Of a stretch of 33,985 bases of DNA, positions 21,091 through 28,222 are shown piece by piece (position 1 is the stretch's first letter; each line of letters starts with the position of its first letter). Below the pieces are notes generated by a model. The model had not been told where the DNA came from. It saw only the letters and a program-made list of their open reading frames with translations, and did no database searches. The translations under genes and the position numbers were made by a program. The stretch lies in assembly GCA_005885325.1 (NCBI GenBank), contig VAYX01000016.1, forward strand, positions 1-33,985, in the 5' to 3' direction. This DNA is from Actinomycetota bacterium (GTDB taxonomy: Bacteria; Actinomycetota; UBA4738; HRBIN12).

Positions 21091-23289
21091 CTAGGAGTGG
21101 AACAGCCAGTCGATCGAGCGCTCGAACCGACTCCGAAGCTCGTCGAGGAGGCCCGGGTGTCGCTCGAGATCGGGATCCTCCTCGATCGCGGCGAACGCCC
21201 GTGCTCGCGCCCGCTTCACCAGCTCGAGGTCGTCGGCGAGGCGCGCGAGCTTCAGGTCCGGAAGCCCCGATTGGCGAACGTCGAACAGCGTGCCCTCGCC
21301 CCGCAGGCGCAGGTCCTCGTCGGCCAGCTCGAACCCGTCCGTGGTCCGAACCATGGCCGCGAGTCGAGCCCTGGCCTCCTCGTTCTCCGGGGTGCTCTCG
21401 TCGAACAGGACGCAGTACGACCGGTACTCGCCACGCCCGATCCTCCCCCGGAGCTGGTGGAGCTGCGCCAGGCCGAACCGCTCGGCGTTCTCCACCATCA
21501 TCACGGTCGCGTTGGGGACGTCGACGCCGACCTCGATCACGGTGGTGGAGATCAGCAGGTGGTGCTTGCCCGCCCGGAACTCCTCCATCACCCGCTCCTT
21601 GGCCGTCGGCCGGAGCCGCCCGTGCAGGACCTCCACGGAGAGGTCCGGGAACACCTGGGTCGCCAGCCGCTCGGCCTCCTTCTCGGCGGCCCGGACCTCG
21701 GCCCGATTGGCCTCGTCGATCGCCGCGCAGACCACGAAGGCCTGCCGGCCGGCCTGAACCTCCCGGCGGACCAGGTCGTAGGCCGCCGTACGCTCCGCGG
21801 CGGTCTTGGCGATCCGGGTCTCGACGGGCTGGCGACCCGAGGGCATCTCGTCCAGCAGGACCACGTCGAGGTCCCCGTAGTACGTGAGCGCGAGTGTCCG
21901 GGGGATGGGGGTGGCCGTCATGATCAGCACATCCGGTGAGCCGCCCTTCCCCTTCAGTGCCATCCTCTGGTGGACGCCGAACCGATGCTGCTCGTCGATC
22001 ACGGCGAGGGACAGGTCCAGGAACGAGACGCCCTCCTGGACCAGCGCGTGGGTCCCCACGACGAGGTCCACGTCACCGCCGGCGATGCCGTCCAGGATCC
22101 TGGTCCGGTCCTTGCCGGTCACCGACGCCGACAACAGCGCGTAGGTGACGCCGGGCCCGCCCGTCGATGTCTGGGACTCGAGCAACGACGCCTGGCCATC
22201 GGTAGGTCCGTCCGCCAGCTCGAGGTAGGAAACGGCCCCGAACGGCCCCAGCAGCTCGGTCATCGACCGGAAATGCTGCCCGGCGAGGACTTCGGTCGGG
22301 GCCATGATCGCCGCCTGGTGGCCCGACTGGATCGCGACCAGCGCCGCATAGAGCGCGACCAGGGTCTTGCCCGAGCCCACGTCCCCCTGCAGGAGCGCGT
22401 TCATGGGTCGGGGACGGGCCATGGCGTCCCCCACCTGTTGCATGGCCCGGCGCTGTGCCCGGGTGGGCTCGAACGGCACGCCGGTGAGCAGCCGCTCCAC
22501 CAGCGGACCGCTCGTTTCGTGCGCGACTCCTCGCTGGCCCGCCTCCACCCGATGCTTGCGGAACGCCACGCCGAGCTCCAGCGTGAACAGTTCGTCGAAC
22601 TTCAGCCGTTCACGGGCACTCGCCAGATCCTCCTGTGACTCGGGGAAGTGGACGGCGCGGATGGCCGGATCGAAGGATGGGAGGGACTCGGCCGCGACGA
22701 TGTCCTCGGGGAGTGGGTCGGGGATCCGCGGAAGGCGTTCGAGCGCTCGGAACACGAGCTCGCGGATGGTCCGGGTGGTCACGCCCTCCGTGGCCCGGTG
22801 GACCGGCGTGATCCGGCCGGTGTGCACCATGTCCGCCTCGGCCCCCCGGAGGATCTCCACCTCGAAGTTGACCATCTGCAACTTGCCCCGGTACAGGGCT
22901 GGGGTGCCGGACACGGCGAGCTCCTGCCCTTCCTTGTACAGCGTCGCCGCCCACGGCTGATTGAAGAACGTGAGGTCGAGGTAGCCAGAGCCGTCGTACA
23001 GGGTGACCGTCACCATGCTCTGGCGCCTGCGGGTCTGGCGCTTCGTGGTCCGCTTCACCCGGGCGATGACCGTCCCCTCCTGCCCCACCCGGAGATCCCG
23101 GATCGAGGCCACCTGCGATCGGTCGATGTAGCGCCGCGGGTAGTGATGGAGCAGGTCCCGCACCGTGCGGATGTCCAGCGCCTCAGCCAGGACGTCGGCG
23201 GCCGGCGGGCCCTTGTCTTTGAACCCGGCCCGGCGCGCCGCCAGGGCGCGGTCGATGGCCGTGATCGGCGACGAGAGCGTGAGCGTCAC
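21091..23289 (-). CDS. recG: ATP-dependent DNA helicase RecG (start uncertain)
   Basis: LLQGDVGSGKTLVALYAAL, VGTHALVQEGVSFLDLSLAVIDEQHRFGVHQRMAL, ATPIPRTLALTYYGDLDVVLLDEMPSGRQPVETR, QLRGRIGRGEYRSYC. Start placed at GTG 23289 because the longer ORF overlaps the divergent tlpA-like gene. Confidence 0.93.
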   Translation of the reverse strand: MTLTLSSPITAIDRALAARRAGFKDKGPPAADVLAEALDIRTVRDLLHHYPRRYIDRSQVASIRDLRVGQEGTVIARVKRTTKRQTRRRQSMVTVTLYDGSGYLDLTFFNQPWAATLYKEGQELAVSGTPALYRGKLQMVNFEVEILRGAEADMVHTGRITPVHRATEGVTTRTIRELVFRALERLPRIPDPLPEDIVAAESLPSFDPAIRAVHFPESQEDLASARERLKFDELFTLELGVAFRKHRVEAGQRGVAHETSGPLVERLLTGVPFEPTRAQRRAMQQVGDAMARPRPMNALLQGDVGSGKTLVALYAALVAIQSGHQAAIMAPTEVLAGQHFRSMTELLGPFGAVSYLELADGPTDGQASLLESQTSTGGPGVTYALLSASVTGKDRTRILDGIAGGDVDLVVGTHALVQEGVSFLDLSLAVIDEQHRFGVHQRMALKGKGGSPDVLIMTATPIPRTLALTYYGDLDVVLLDEMPSGRQPVETRIAKTAAERTAAYDLVRREVQAGRQAFVVCAAIDEANRAEVRAAEKEAERLATQVFPDLSVEVLHGRLRPTAKERVMEEFRAGKHHLLISTTVIEVGVDVPNATVMMVENAERFGLAQLHQLRGRIGRGEYRSYCVLFDESTPENEEARARLAAMVRTTDGFELADEDLRLRGEGTLFDVRQSGLPDLKLARLADDLELVKRARARAFAAIEEDPDLERHPGLLDELRSRFERSIDWLFHS

Positions 23290-23341
23290 GGGGAGCCGGT
23301 CGGTTCGGTCGGCGGCGCGGAACCCACACCGTGGTTCTACC

Positions 23342-23902
23342 ATGCACCTCATGCCGCTCCGCCGGATCGCCTTCGCGTCCGCCCTCATCGCGATGGCGGC
23401 GGCGGCGTGCACGGGTGGTGCCTCGGACGTCGGCGGGGGCGATCGGACGCCGGTTCCGGCGCGGAACGCCACGCAGGCCCCCCTCCTGCCGACCGACGCT
23501 TCGGCCCTTCCCGGGTTCGACTTCGGAACCTTCCAGGAGCTGCTGGGTCAGCTGAAGGGAACCCCCGTGGTCGTGAACGTCTGGGCGGCATGGTGCGGGC
23601 CGTGCCGGGTGGAGGCCCCGGACCTGGCGTCCGCCTCGCACTCCTACGGCTCCCGCGTCCAGTTCTTGGGGGTGGACATCTTGGACTCGCGATCATCGGC
23701 CAGGTCCTTCATGGTCGAGTACGGGTGGAACTACCCGAGCGTCTTCGACCCCACGGCCGCGATCCGAAACGGTTTGGGGTTCGTGGGGCAGCCGGACACC
23801 ATCTTCTACGACGCCGGGGGCCGCATCGCGATGACCTGGCAGGGGCCGCTCACCCCCGCTGCCCTCCAGAAGGGATTGAACAGGATCCTTCCTTCGGTCT
23901 GA
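23342..23902 (+). CDS. TlpA/ResA-type thioredoxin-fold lipoprotein
   Basis: Lipobox AMAAAAC; VVVNVWAAWCGPCRVEAPDLASASHSYGSRVQFLGVDILDS; WCGPC redox motif; cis-Pro region FVGQPDTIFYD. Confidence 0.9.
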   Translation: MHLMPLRRIAFASALIAMAAAACTGGASDVGGGDRTPVPARNATQAPLLPTDASALPGFDFGTFQELLGQLKGTPVVVNVWAAWCGPCRVEAPDLASASHSYGSRVQFLGVDILDSRSSARSFMVEYGWNYPSVFDPTAAIRNGLGFVGQPDTIFYDAGGRIAMTWQGPLTPAALQKGLNRILPSV

Positions 23903-23905
23903 GCG

Positions 23906-26900
23906 TCAATGGTCGATGGGCGAAAGGATCGACGATCGGTTCCGTGCCGGCGTCTTCAACTCGTCGAGGACGGCCTCGGCCCTGCGATACAGCCTGCCGG
24001 CCATCCGCCGATCTCCACGCCGCTTCTCGGCCGCAGCGTGGAGCGAAAGGGACCGCGCAAGCCACGCAGTCCGACCCATGGTGCTCCACGTTTCGACGGC
24101 TCGCTCGAATGCCTTCGCCGCGCCCTCGTCGTCCCCCGCGCGGAGCGCGTGCAGACCCTCGTTCTCCAGGACGACCGCCGCGATCTCCGCTTCCTCGATC
24201 GCAACGTCAGGTCTGCCCTCGACGTCCGCTCCCGCCAGCAACGCGGACTGCCGCTCCAACGCCACGGCCAGGCCCAGGAAGCCGCCCGAGCCCAGGGACC
24301 GAGCGAGCGAGGCGGCTCGAGCCAGGTGGCGCCGCGCCTCATCCGGCCGGCCGGCGCCAAGGGAGGCTCGTCCACGAAGGAGCGGAACGAGCGGCTCGAG
24401 GATGAGCCAGTCGCTGGCTCGCACCGCGGTACCGAGGCGAACGCCGAGGCCCGAGACCTTGTCCCAGACCCCTCGGTCAAGCGCCAGCCACGCTTCGAAC
24501 AGGAGGGCCTCGCAACGCATCACGCGGATCCTCTTCTGCTCGATGATCAGCCGGGCCGCCCGGAGCCGGCTCTGTGCAAGCGACGGCGAACCGGACCTGA
24601 GCGCCGCGCGGGCTCCCGCCAGGAGCCCGGTGGCTCGAACCCGCGCCGAGCGCAGCTCACGGGCGAGCTCGAGGGCCTCGAGGCTCAGGCGTTCAGCCTC
24701 GTCGGGAGGGCCAACAGCGGCCGCGGCCATGGCACCGATGAGGACGGTGTCGGCCTCCGCATAGCGATCACCTGACTGAGCCGCCAGCGGTCTCGCTTCG
24801 CGCATGATCCGGATGGCCTCCCCGAACTCGCCGCAGAAATACGCGAAGTAGCCGCGTGTCCTGGCCACCGCGGCCCGCGATCGAAGGTCGCGGTCGTCCT
24901 CCGCGAGCCGGTTCGCCTCCTCCAACCACCGATGGAACTCCCGGCCCCCTTGCGTGGTGAGCAGGTACGCGAGGTCCTGGGCGGCGACCGAACGGCCCCA
25001 GCGATCCCTCGAGCGCGTGAACAGGCGATGGGCCTTGCGGAGTTCCAGCAACTCGCGCGAGTAATCGTCTCTGCTCCACGTCTCGGAAAGATGGTGGAGC
25101 GCCCACGCCTGCCCCCGGACATCACCGAGGATCGCGAACTCCCCTCGTGCCTCCTCCAGGAGCGTTCGAGCTCGACGCATGCGACCCGCGTCGCTCTCGG
25201 CTCGTCCCAGCGCGAGCAACGCCCGGGCCGCTAGGCGCCGGTCGCCAAGCTCATGGCCGATGGCCCTGGCCTGGGTGGCGTGCGTGATTGCCTCGCGGTG
25301 CCGCCCCATCTCGATCAAGCTCTCCGCCCGGCCCGTGAGGAGCGTGGCGGTGGTCCGAGGGTCGATGCCTTCCTCATCTTCCTGGACGATGCGAAGGGCC
25401 CGCTCGTACAGAGCCTCGGCGGAGCGCGCCTGGTAGGCGAAGGTCTGCGCCGCAGACCGACCGAGATACCGAACCGCGAGCCGAGCGGTTCCGATCGGTG
25501 GACGCCGGCCCGTCGTCGAGCGCCCGAGCTCCCACGCCCGCTCGTAATGATGGGCGAGCGCGGCGATGGGCTCCTCGGACGCCGACGGGGCACGTCCCCG
25601 CAACCACTCCGCGATCTGCCGATGACGGCGGGCCCGTTCCAATCGCGGCAACGACTCGTAGGCCACCTCGCGGATCAGCGGGTGCTTGAACCCGTACTCC
25701 ACCGACCCCGGGACGGCGCTCGTGGCGCGACGCCGCAGCAGGTCGCGTCCCTCCAGCGACAGCAGGGCCCGGTGAGGATCGGGGACCTCGGACAGGTGTT
25801 CCTCGAGCCCGTCCCACGTCGCATCACCCGCGACCGACGCGTCCTGGAGCACCTGTTTCTCGTCCGGTGGAAGCCCGTCCAGCCGAGCGGCGATCAACGA
25901 CCGGATCGTCGGGGGCACGGCCTGCAGGAGGTTCGGCTGGGCCACTCGCCAGCCGGTGGCTCCGGACACCAGCGCACCCGTCTCGACCAGCATCCCCAGG
26001 CTCTCCTCGAGGAACAACGGGTTGCCTGCGGCCAACCCCACCGGGGCCTGGACCACTGCACGGGGGGCCGCTTCTCCCAGGACGCTGTGAGCGAGCTCCA
26101 GCATCGCGGGGTCCGGCAGCGACCCCAGCTCGAGCTGGGGGAGTTTCGCGATCAGCTTGTCGGGCCGGGAGAGACCGAGGAACAGCACAGGGCAGTTCCA
26201 CGGCTGGCGGCTCACGTCCTCGAGGGCCTTCACCAGGTCCGGGTCCGCCCACTGCAGGTCGTCGAGAACGACGGTGACCGGCTGCTTCATCCTGGCCAGC
26301 CCCTCCACGACCGTGCGGACCGCCGCAAGTGCGTCATGCACCGATCCGGGTGCTTGCCCCGGTGCGACCCGTCCGGCCAGCAACAGGCTCATCTCCCTGA
26401 CCAGGGTCCTTCGGTCCACGCCGGCGATGCGCTCCGCGAGTCGCGTCGCCCCGGCCTCGATCTCCTTGATCGGCGCTCCCGGGGAGACGCCGGCGGCCCC
26501 GCCGATCGCTTCGGCCATGGCATGCAGGGGGTGCTGTGGGCCGAAGGGCACGCACCGGCCGGCCAAGACGGAACCGCGCCGCAGGCGTTTGCGGAACTCC
26601 GCCGCGGCCCGCGACTTGCCCAGTCCGGGTTCGCCGGTGACGACGAGGACCCGGGATCGGGCTTCGCGTTCGGTGGCGAGCGTCTCGTCTCGAAGGCGAT
26701 GCATCACGTCCGCCCGGTCGACGAATGCTCTCGTCGGCGTCCGGCCCTGTCGCGTGGCCGGGCGGGCCGACCGGACGCCCACGGCCTCATAGGTCGCGAG
26801 ATCGGGCTTGCCCTTCGCTTGCCGGGTGTATCGGGGGCCGTACCGGATGGCGCCGGAGGTCCGGGCCCTCGTGCGCTCGTCGACCAACACCCGCCCGCCC

Positions 26901-27364
26901 GGTGCGAGATCCGCGAGCCTCGACGCGGTGTTCACCGTGTCGCCGATCACGGTGAACCCCGCCGGCTCATCGGAAGGGGCGACCATGACTTCCCCTGAGT
27001 TCACGCCCGCGTGGACTTCGGGGAACGGGAGGCCTTCGCTCCTCGCGTTCAGTTCGCGGACGTGATCCCGTACGGCCAGCGCGGCCCGGACCGCCCGTTC
27101 GGCGTCGTCCTCGTGGACGATCGGGACCCCGAAGACGGCCATGAACCCGTCCCCCATGATCTGGGGCACCGTGCCGCCGAAGGTCTCGGCGATCCGCTGG
27201 AGCGCGTGCAGCTGGGGACGGAGGAAGCGATAGACCTCCTCGGCATCCATGGAGGCTGCGAGCGCCGTGTACCCGGCGAGGTCAGCGAAGAGGACCGAGA
27301 CGAGCTTGCGTTCGCCTCGCTCGGCGACGGGCGCCCTCGACCCAACGGTCCGCCTATCCGGCAT
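23906..27364 (-). CDS. Class III adenylate/guanylate cyclase - AAA ATPase - TPR signalling protein (1152 aa)
   Basis: N-terminal cyclase domain (VSVLFADLAGYTALA, GGTVPQIMGDGFMAVFG, FTVIGDTVNTASRLAD), Walker A VVTGEPGLGKS, Walker B-like VTVVLDDLQWADPDL, helical-repeat C-terminus. Confidence 0.92.
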   Translation of the reverse strand: MPDRRTVGSRAPVAERGERKLVSVLFADLAGYTALAASMDAEEVYRFLRPQLHALQRIAETFGGTVPQIMGDGFMAVFGVPIVHEDDAERAVRAALAVRDHVRELNARSEGLPFPEVHAGVNSGEVMVAPSDEPAGFTVIGDTVNTASRLADLAPGGRVLVDERTRARTSGAIRYGPRYTRQAKGKPDLATYEAVGVRSARPATRQGRTPTRAFVDRADVMHRLRDETLATEREARSRVLVVTGEPGLGKSRAAAEFRKRLRRGSVLAGRCVPFGPQHPLHAMAEAIGGAAGVSPGAPIKEIEAGATRLAERIAGVDRRTLVREMSLLLAGRVAPGQAPGSVHDALAAVRTVVEGLARMKQPVTVVLDDLQWADPDLVKALEDVSRQPWNCPVLFLGLSRPDKLIAKLPQLELGSLPDPAMLELAHSVLGEAAPRAVVQAPVGLAAGNPLFLEESLGMLVETGALVSGATGWRVAQPNLLQAVPPTIRSLIAARLDGLPPDEKQVLQDASVAGDATWDGLEEHLSEVPDPHRALLSLEGRDLLRRRATSAVPGSVEYGFKHPLIREVAYESLPRLERARRHRQIAEWLRGRAPSASEEPIAALAHHYERAWELGRSTTGRRPPIGTARLAVRYLGRSAAQTFAYQARSAEALYERALRIVQEDEEGIDPRTTATLLTGRAESLIEMGRHREAITHATQARAIGHELGDRRLAARALLALGRAESDAGRMRRARTLLEEARGEFAILGDVRGQAWALHHLSETWSRDDYSRELLELRKAHRLFTRSRDRWGRSVAAQDLAYLLTTQGGREFHRWLEEANRLAEDDRDLRSRAAVARTRGYFAYFCGEFGEAIRIMREARPLAAQSGDRYAEADTVLIGAMAAAAVGPPDEAERLSLEALELARELRSARVRATGLLAGARAALRSGSPSLAQSRLRAARLIIEQKRIRVMRCEALLFEAWLALDRGVWDKVSGLGVRLGTAVRASDWLILEPLVPLLRGRASLGAGRPDEARRHLARAASLARSLGSGGFLGLAVALERQSALLAGADVEGRPDVAIEEAEIAAVVLENEGLHALRAGDDEGAAKAFERAVETWSTMGRTAWLARSLSLHAAAEKRRGDRRMAGRLYRRAEAVLDELKTPARNRSSILSPIDH

Positions 27365-27929
27365 CCTCCCCGCCGCGGATCGCGTTGCCGGGCAGATAGG
27401 CGAACGACGAGTCCGTTCCCCCGATCCCCTCCACGGTCAGGAGGTCATGGGCGATCGCCGTCCACAGCTCCTCGAAGCTCGGCCTTCCCAAGTCCACGAG
27501 GACGTCGAACCCCCGGCCCGAGACGACGGCTGCGCCATACCAATATGTGTTCTCGTCGAACTTGTCCTTGAAGGCCTCGTCCAGGGCGTCCAGGAGGTCG
27601 AACGGACTTCCGGCGGCGCGAACCCGTACGAGTGCGCAGTACGGCGGGCTTGCCCGCTTGGGCCCCCTGATGCTCGAGACCTTGAGCTCGGTGGACGTCT
27701 CGGAATGAACGCCCGCGTCCCAGAGAGGTCCGGCGATGAACGTCTGGGCGTCCTCAAGGCTCCGGCTCTCCATGCGCGTGTACACGGCGAAGGAGCCGAT
27801 GAAGTGCGCCACGAACTTGACCTGATCGCGATTGGCCCCCACGGACTCGACGACCTGCCGGATGGACCTCCCTGCCTCGATCGTCTGGGAGAAGACATGA
27901 TGGACGATCGGACCCTCCGCTGATTGCAT
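27354..27929 (-). CDS. Uncharacterised 191-aa protein with two apparent RAM/Lrp-AsnC-like half-repeats, coupled to the cyclase gene
   Basis: Long ORF with GAGGGGG SD upstream of ATG; overlaps the cyclase start by 11 bp. Internal similarity: SLEDAQTFIAGPLWDA-GVHSETSTELK vs SFEELWTAIAHDLLTVEGIGGTDSSFAYL. Confidence 0.7.
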   Translation of the reverse strand: MQSAEGPIVHHVFSQTIEAGRSIRQVVESVGANRDQVKFVAHFIGSFAVYTRMESRSLEDAQTFIAGPLWDAGVHSETSTELKVSSIRGPKRASPPYCALVRVRAAGSPFDLLDALDEAFKDKFDENTYWYGAAVVSGRGFDVLVDLGRPSFEELWTAIAHDLLTVEGIGGTDSSFAYLPGNAIRGGEDAG

Positions 27930-28030
27930 GATTCCCCCTCAGGATTCGTTCCTCGACAACTCTGCTCTCCGGACGGCCCGACCGCAAGGCGACGGGAAGC
28001 CGGAGGCCGTCTGTTACCCTTGCTCGCGCC

Positions 28031-28222
28031 ATGGCAGCCGTGTGCGAGATCTGCGGGAAGAAGCCGTTCTTCGGCAAGCGGGTGTCCCACTCCCACCACC
28101 GGACCAACCGAAGGTTCGATCCGAACGTCCAGCGGGTCCGGGCCCTGGTGAATGGGTCGCCGCGGCGGATCTACGCCTGCACCAGTTGCCTGAAGGCCGG
28201 CAAGGTTCAGCGAGCCGGCTAG
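28031..28222 (+). CDS. rpmB: 50S ribosomal protein L28
   Basis: MAAVCEICGKKPFFGKRVSHSHHRTNRRFDPNVQRVRALVNGSPRRIYACTSCLKAGKVQRAG; zinc-ribbon (two CxxC) form. Confidence 0.95.
   Translation: MAAVCEICGKKPFFGKRVSHSHHRTNRRFDPNVQRVRALVNGSPRRIYACTSCLKAGKVQRAG

Follow-up and report, generated by a model that had tools for sequence, protein, structure and literature searches.

The window analysed here, a stretch of 33,985 nucleotides, encodes a 191-residue protein that is almost certainly a tandem pair of RAM domains, and that probably works in functional partnership with the class III cyclase protein encoded beside it. The evidence comes from the fold of the two domains, from a conserved linkage of the family to cyclase genes, and from sites at which the RAM gene has been kept while the cyclase differs.

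Gene arrangement in the window

The locus comprises the following features, in window coordinates:

28031..28222, plus strand: ribosomal protein L28-like open reading frame of 63 aa, divergent neighbour (identity assigned by eye)
27934..27940, minus strand: Shine-Dalgarno sequence GAGGGGG, 5' of the RAM gene (from the sequence)
27354..27929, minus strand: tandem-RAM gene (P0001), 191-aa open reading frame with an ATG start
27672..27908, minus strand: RAM domain 1, approximately residues 8-86 (hhalign to stand-alone RAM domains, 96.5%; sub-threshold in Pfam)
27387..27641, minus strand: RAM domain 2, approximately residues 97-181 (hhalign, 98.6%; AlphaFold; Foldseek)
27354..27364, minus strand: 11-bp overlap of the RAM stop and the cyclase start (from the reading-frame coordinates)
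23906..27364, minus strand: gene for a class III cyclase - AAA_16/STAND-type ATPase - TPR protein of 1152 aa (Pfam)
26789..27304, minus strand: cyclase catalytic domain, residues 21-192 (Pfam, alignment)
26183..26725, minus strand: AAA_16 ATPase domain, residues 214-394 (Pfam; Walker A GEPGLGKS and Walker B intact)
24092..25351, minus strand: TPR region, approximately residues 672-1091 (Pfam TPR_12 in four stretches, TPR_2)
21091..23472, minus strand: recG, downstream neighbour (NCBIfam RecG)

The 191-aa open reading frame described in an earlier note on this DNA, which gave no strand, lies exactly at 27354..27929 on the minus strand, and its 5' context (GAGGGGG-AATC-ATG) is a good Shine-Dalgarno arrangement, as had been claimed. 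The overlap of 11 bp with the 1152-aa cyclase-AAA-TPR gene was likewise found (27354-27364), with the cyclase reading frame running from 27364 to 23906 on the same strand. Immediately 5' of the cyclase ATG stands GGGGAGG with zero spacer, which makes reinitiation at this gene after the RAM stop plausible and leaves the exact start codon of the 1152-aa reading frame not certain. The RAM-cyclase pair is predicted to be its own unit, which would begin where the L28-like reading frame diverges upstream. The recG gene follows 433 bp downstream of the pair, and the genome G005 has the same flank.

A tandem RAM protein without an HTH

Both halves of the protein match RAM profiles. With profiles made from the 12 homologues, hhalign against an alignment of ordinary and stand-alone RAM domains gave ~95-96.5% for the N-terminal half and 98.6% for the C-terminal half. 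The two half-profiles match each other with 88% probability, whereas ten unrelated cyclase-alignment blocks, used as a negative control, reached at most 0.5% against either half. The comparison aligns the same stretches that had earlier been paired by eye (SLEDAQTFIAGPLW.../SFEELWTAIAHDLL...), and the duplication is therefore real. A PDB profile search with the family profile A1 retrieved the stand-alone RAM structures 2cvi (6e-9) and 2e1a (2e-8). In Pfam, AsnC_trans_reg (PF01037) matches residues 23-67 of the window protein with an E value of 0.004 and 17.4 bits, against a curated cut-off of 25; among the window protein and seven homologues, it matches seven of the eight at E ≤ 1, the best at 1.3e-15.

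Structure prediction agrees with these matches. AlphaFold models the C-terminal domain alone as beta-alpha-beta-beta-alpha-beta (pLDDT 69), and all 11 structures found by Foldseek with E ≤ 0.001 are of the Lrp/AsnC type, including E. coli Lrp and AsnC. The model of the whole protein, made with a two-row alignment, is poor (pLDDT 42), with the order b-a-b-b-a, helix, then a-b-b-a-b; Foldseek ranked Lrp/AsnC proteins top for this model, with matches that are not significant. The RAM fold of the N-terminal domain is given by this low-confidence model together with the profile match. Where an unrelated fold might have emerged, the profiles, Pfam in the homologues, the PDB matches and the C-domain structure all indicate RAM, which bears out the earlier proposal of a duplicated RAM protein with a RAM-like second half.

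Only Gly45, Gly73 and Leu144 are invariant across the 12 homologues. The first RAM domain of the window protein is degenerate, in that the invariant Gly45 is kept and the usual Asp of GxYD is lost (alignment A4), and the second keeps G-F-D. No HTH family matches the 191-aa protein in Pfam at E ≤ 10, in line with the absence noted by eye, and the first RAM domain starts near residue 8. By its sequence, the protein has neither HTH nor linker and is not DNA-binding.

The partner cyclase

The adjoining gene encodes a protein of class III cyclase - AAA/STAND ATPase - TPR architecture, that of the mycobacterial Rv0386-like type, with Pfam matches to Guanylate_cyc (2e-18), AAA_16 (3e-16) and TPR_12 (7e-17). 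The domain order is the same as in the Rv0386-like type, from which the window clade differs by a Gln for Lys and by the adjoining tandem-RAM gene. Among the residues with established roles in class III cyclases (the metal Asp residues, the transition-state Asn and Arg, and the adenine-selecting Lys), the window cyclase retains both Asp, the Asn and the Arg, and has Gln in place of the Lys (GGTVPQIMGDG). Its clade reads GGTVPQxxGD where the usual motif is GGTVEKFIGD. Of 53 cyclases compared, 36 have Lys at this position; Gln is found in the window protein, in L009, L010 and L015, and in just one more. Judged from these motifs, the replacement is the mark of a variant cyclase and not of a non-cyclase, and the window-clade enzymes may use a substrate other than ATP alone. 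The 2.2-Mb draft genome G000 has at least 11 cyclase-AAA-type matches, a large expansion for its size.

Linkage of the family to cyclase genes

A plain protein search, blind to gene neighbourhood, added to the window protein seven homologues from seven further genomes, and all eight adjoin cyclase-AAA genes. The last four members were recruited with a profile built from the first eight, which brings the family to 12 members. Of the order, 27 genomes were examined, and 10 of them hold the family. A cyclase-AAA(-TPR) gene lies at most 1.9 kb away in 12 of 12 members, and at most 0.7 kb away in 11, whereas the 51 other PF01037 genes in these genomes all lack such a gene within 5 kb (Fisher 4e-13, for genes that are not independent and with the last four members profile-recruited). 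The coupling to a cyclase regulator proposed in the earlier note is thus a conserved linkage in the neighbourhoods of the homologues.

Each genome has scattered cyclase-AAA matches, from several up to 18 of them, and most of these genes are without a RAM neighbour; a search for RAM genes missed beside the other cyclases found none. No RAM-cyclase fusion was seen. When a two-row family profile was searched against genome contigs, the G005 contig (MAG nzgw114) was the sole match. Outside the order, the family search yielded L053, a probable thirteenth member that stands apart from the count of 12. This probable tandem-RAM gene (L053:3493-3810) is truncated where its contig ends, and its visible side has no cyclase. 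It comes from another family of the phylum, and genes for a BTAD-TPR regulator and for an ABM-domain protein lie close by.

Exchange of cyclases beside the RAM gene

In the window clade, the RAM gene comes first and is co-directional with the cyclase gene, at spacings of -11, +25, -4 and ~+1 bp. The two genes are tail-to-tail in L011, L012, L013, L014, L049 and L052. In L050 (2614-4657), the tandem-RAM gene and an abhydrolase (alpha/beta-hydrolase)-cyclase gene face away from each other, start to start, with a cyclase-AAA gene beyond. The translational coupling read from the overlap in the window is seen in the window clade alone (4 of the 12 members, with spacings between 11 bp of overlap and a gap of 25 bp), whereas most other pairs are tail-to-tail. 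Two consecutive tandem-RAM genes stand beside one cyclase-AAA gene in L013 (4553-5712).

The partner cyclases occupy at least four places in a tree of 53 cyclase sequences, in two orientations, and the RAM-linked state needs five changes on this tree, at least four of them forced by supported branches. The window cyclase forms a clade with those of L009, L010 and L015 (100%). The window RAM protein groups with L009, L010, L011, L012 and L014 (99/98), a group that leaves out L015, so that the RAM and cyclase trees disagree. Two syntenic sites have kept the RAM gene while both the subfamily and the orientation of the cyclase differ: the site HDAC-cyclase-RAM-SDR in G021 (L015) and G023 (L013), and the site next to tad genes in G006 (L010) and G014 (L011). 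Simple inheritance of one ancestral RAM-cyclase pair is ruled out by the trees and the synteny.

Because the RAM gene is kept while the cyclase differs at these two sites, a functional partnership is likelier than an inherited neighbourhood, and the pairing looks like the former. The linkage could also be passive, with cyclase-AAA-TPR cassettes being often exchanged and a functionally unrelated RAM gene carried along or marking the place of exchange. Cyclases of different subfamilies at the same sites and the varying orientation would fit such exchange. The adjacency in every one of the 12 members, across three families, the retention of the RAM gene through exchanges and the co-directional, near-overlapping genes in one clade argue against it, and we consider passive linkage unlikely.

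To the same degree we doubt that the RAM protein acts in transcription, in mixed assemblies with HTH-bearing Lrp proteins, with the adjacency reflecting shared regulation only. Mixed octamers of FL11 and DM1 have been reported in Pyrococcus horikoshii (PMC2995911), and the genomes studied here hold several other PF01037 genes, some of which perhaps encode full Lrp proteins. However, these other RAM genes are unlinked to cyclases, and a role in transcription does not account for a constant cyclase-AAA neighbour of changing subfamily.

Comparison with known RAM proteins

The RAM-cyclase pairing appears to be undescribed, although RAM domains and stand-alone RAM proteins are already known; our literature search, which covered few subscription papers, found no report of RAM domains in tandem or of such a pair. 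The stand-alone RAM proteins DM1 (2e1a) and PHS023 (2cvi) of P. horikoshii, STS042 (2zbc) of S. tokodaii and TTHA0845 (2djw) of T. thermophilus likewise have RAM without an HTH. They consist of one domain (~75-92 residues), whereas the window protein has two per chain, the first degenerate, and no cyclase partner has been described for them, whereas the window RAM gene adjoins a cyclase. Lrp/AsnC transcription regulators share the RAM fold with the window protein, which is without their N-terminal HTH and linker.

A second tandem-RAM family (G000:C111 = L116, L062, L115, L117, L118, L051) follows an MgtE gene and a PhoU/TrkA_C gene, with ispH adjoining where seen. The proteins of this MgtE - PhoU/TrkA_C - tandem-RAM operon, from the same order (L062, L115-L118, L051), are also tandem RAM proteins without an HTH, of 182-190 aa, and profile A4 matches L118 over its full length (3.9e-19). 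In contrast to the window protein, both halves are canonical, and the neighbours are a divalent-cation transporter set and ispH, not cyclases. This family is possibly a regulator of divalent-cation transport.

Proposed mechanism

A tandem RAM protein without an HTH is unlikely to act on DNA alone, and we therefore expect it to have a protein partner. Wherever the neighbourhood could be judged, a cyclase-AAA gene lies beside it. Amino acids or similar metabolites bind to RAM domains between dimers and alter their assembly (PMC2995911). We propose that the tandem-RAM protein would be a dedicated ligand-binding regulatory subunit of the adjoining class III cyclase - STAND-type ATPase - TPR protein. 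A small metabolite, at a first guess an amino acid or a relative, would bind to the RAM domains, and the ligand or the assembly state of the RAM protein would set the cyclase/ATPase activity by contact, probably via the TPR/ATPase part of the cyclase protein. The persistence of the RAM gene through changes of cyclase points to contact with a part common to all partners (ATPase or TPR). The mechanism as stated, in which we infer the binding, the contact and the direction of control, is in our view evenly poised between right and wrong. Several observations count against it: the lack of any fusion, the mostly non-operon pairs, the degenerate first RAM domain of the window protein, the restriction of the family to 10 of 27 genomes, the RAM-less majority of cyclase-AAA genes and the poor whole-protein model.

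Alternatively, the RAM protein might act downstream of the cyclase, binding a cyclic nucleotide or another product and relaying the signal. A small ligand-binding protein does adjoin a nucleotide-making enzyme here, and the base-selecting residue is altered in the cyclase clade. Yet cyclic-nucleotide binding is not known to us for any RAM protein. The ligands known for RAM domains comprise amino acids, and 2-oxoglutarate in the case of DM1 (PMC2995911), and we find a downstream role quite unlikely. It is very unlikely that the RAM-fold protein is an enzyme making or destroying a ligand of the cyclase protein: hydrolytic activity has been reported for a stand-alone RAM protein of Pyrococcus furiosus, according to the part of PMC2995911 that cites it, and the title of a PDB entry gives the sirohaem decarboxylase AhbA/B an Lrp-like fold, but the three invariant residues of the family include no conserved catalytic-type set.

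A regulatory subunit that binds a ligand could be taken further, to a two-part module new to science, in which a tandem-RAM amino/keto-acid sensor would directly gate a STAND-ATPase cyclase whose cyclase part is interchangeable, the product in the window clade being a cyclic nucleotide other than cAMP. We regard this extended version as speculative and rather improbable.

Implications

The control of many bacterial cyclase-STAND-TPR proteins is, to our knowledge, mostly unknown. The physiological role of stand-alone RAM proteins has been called unclear in a review of archaeal Lrp proteins (PMC2995911). A conserved RAM-cyclase pair joins these two questions and offers a direct test: the protein is small, a class of candidate ligands suggests itself, and the enzyme can be assayed.
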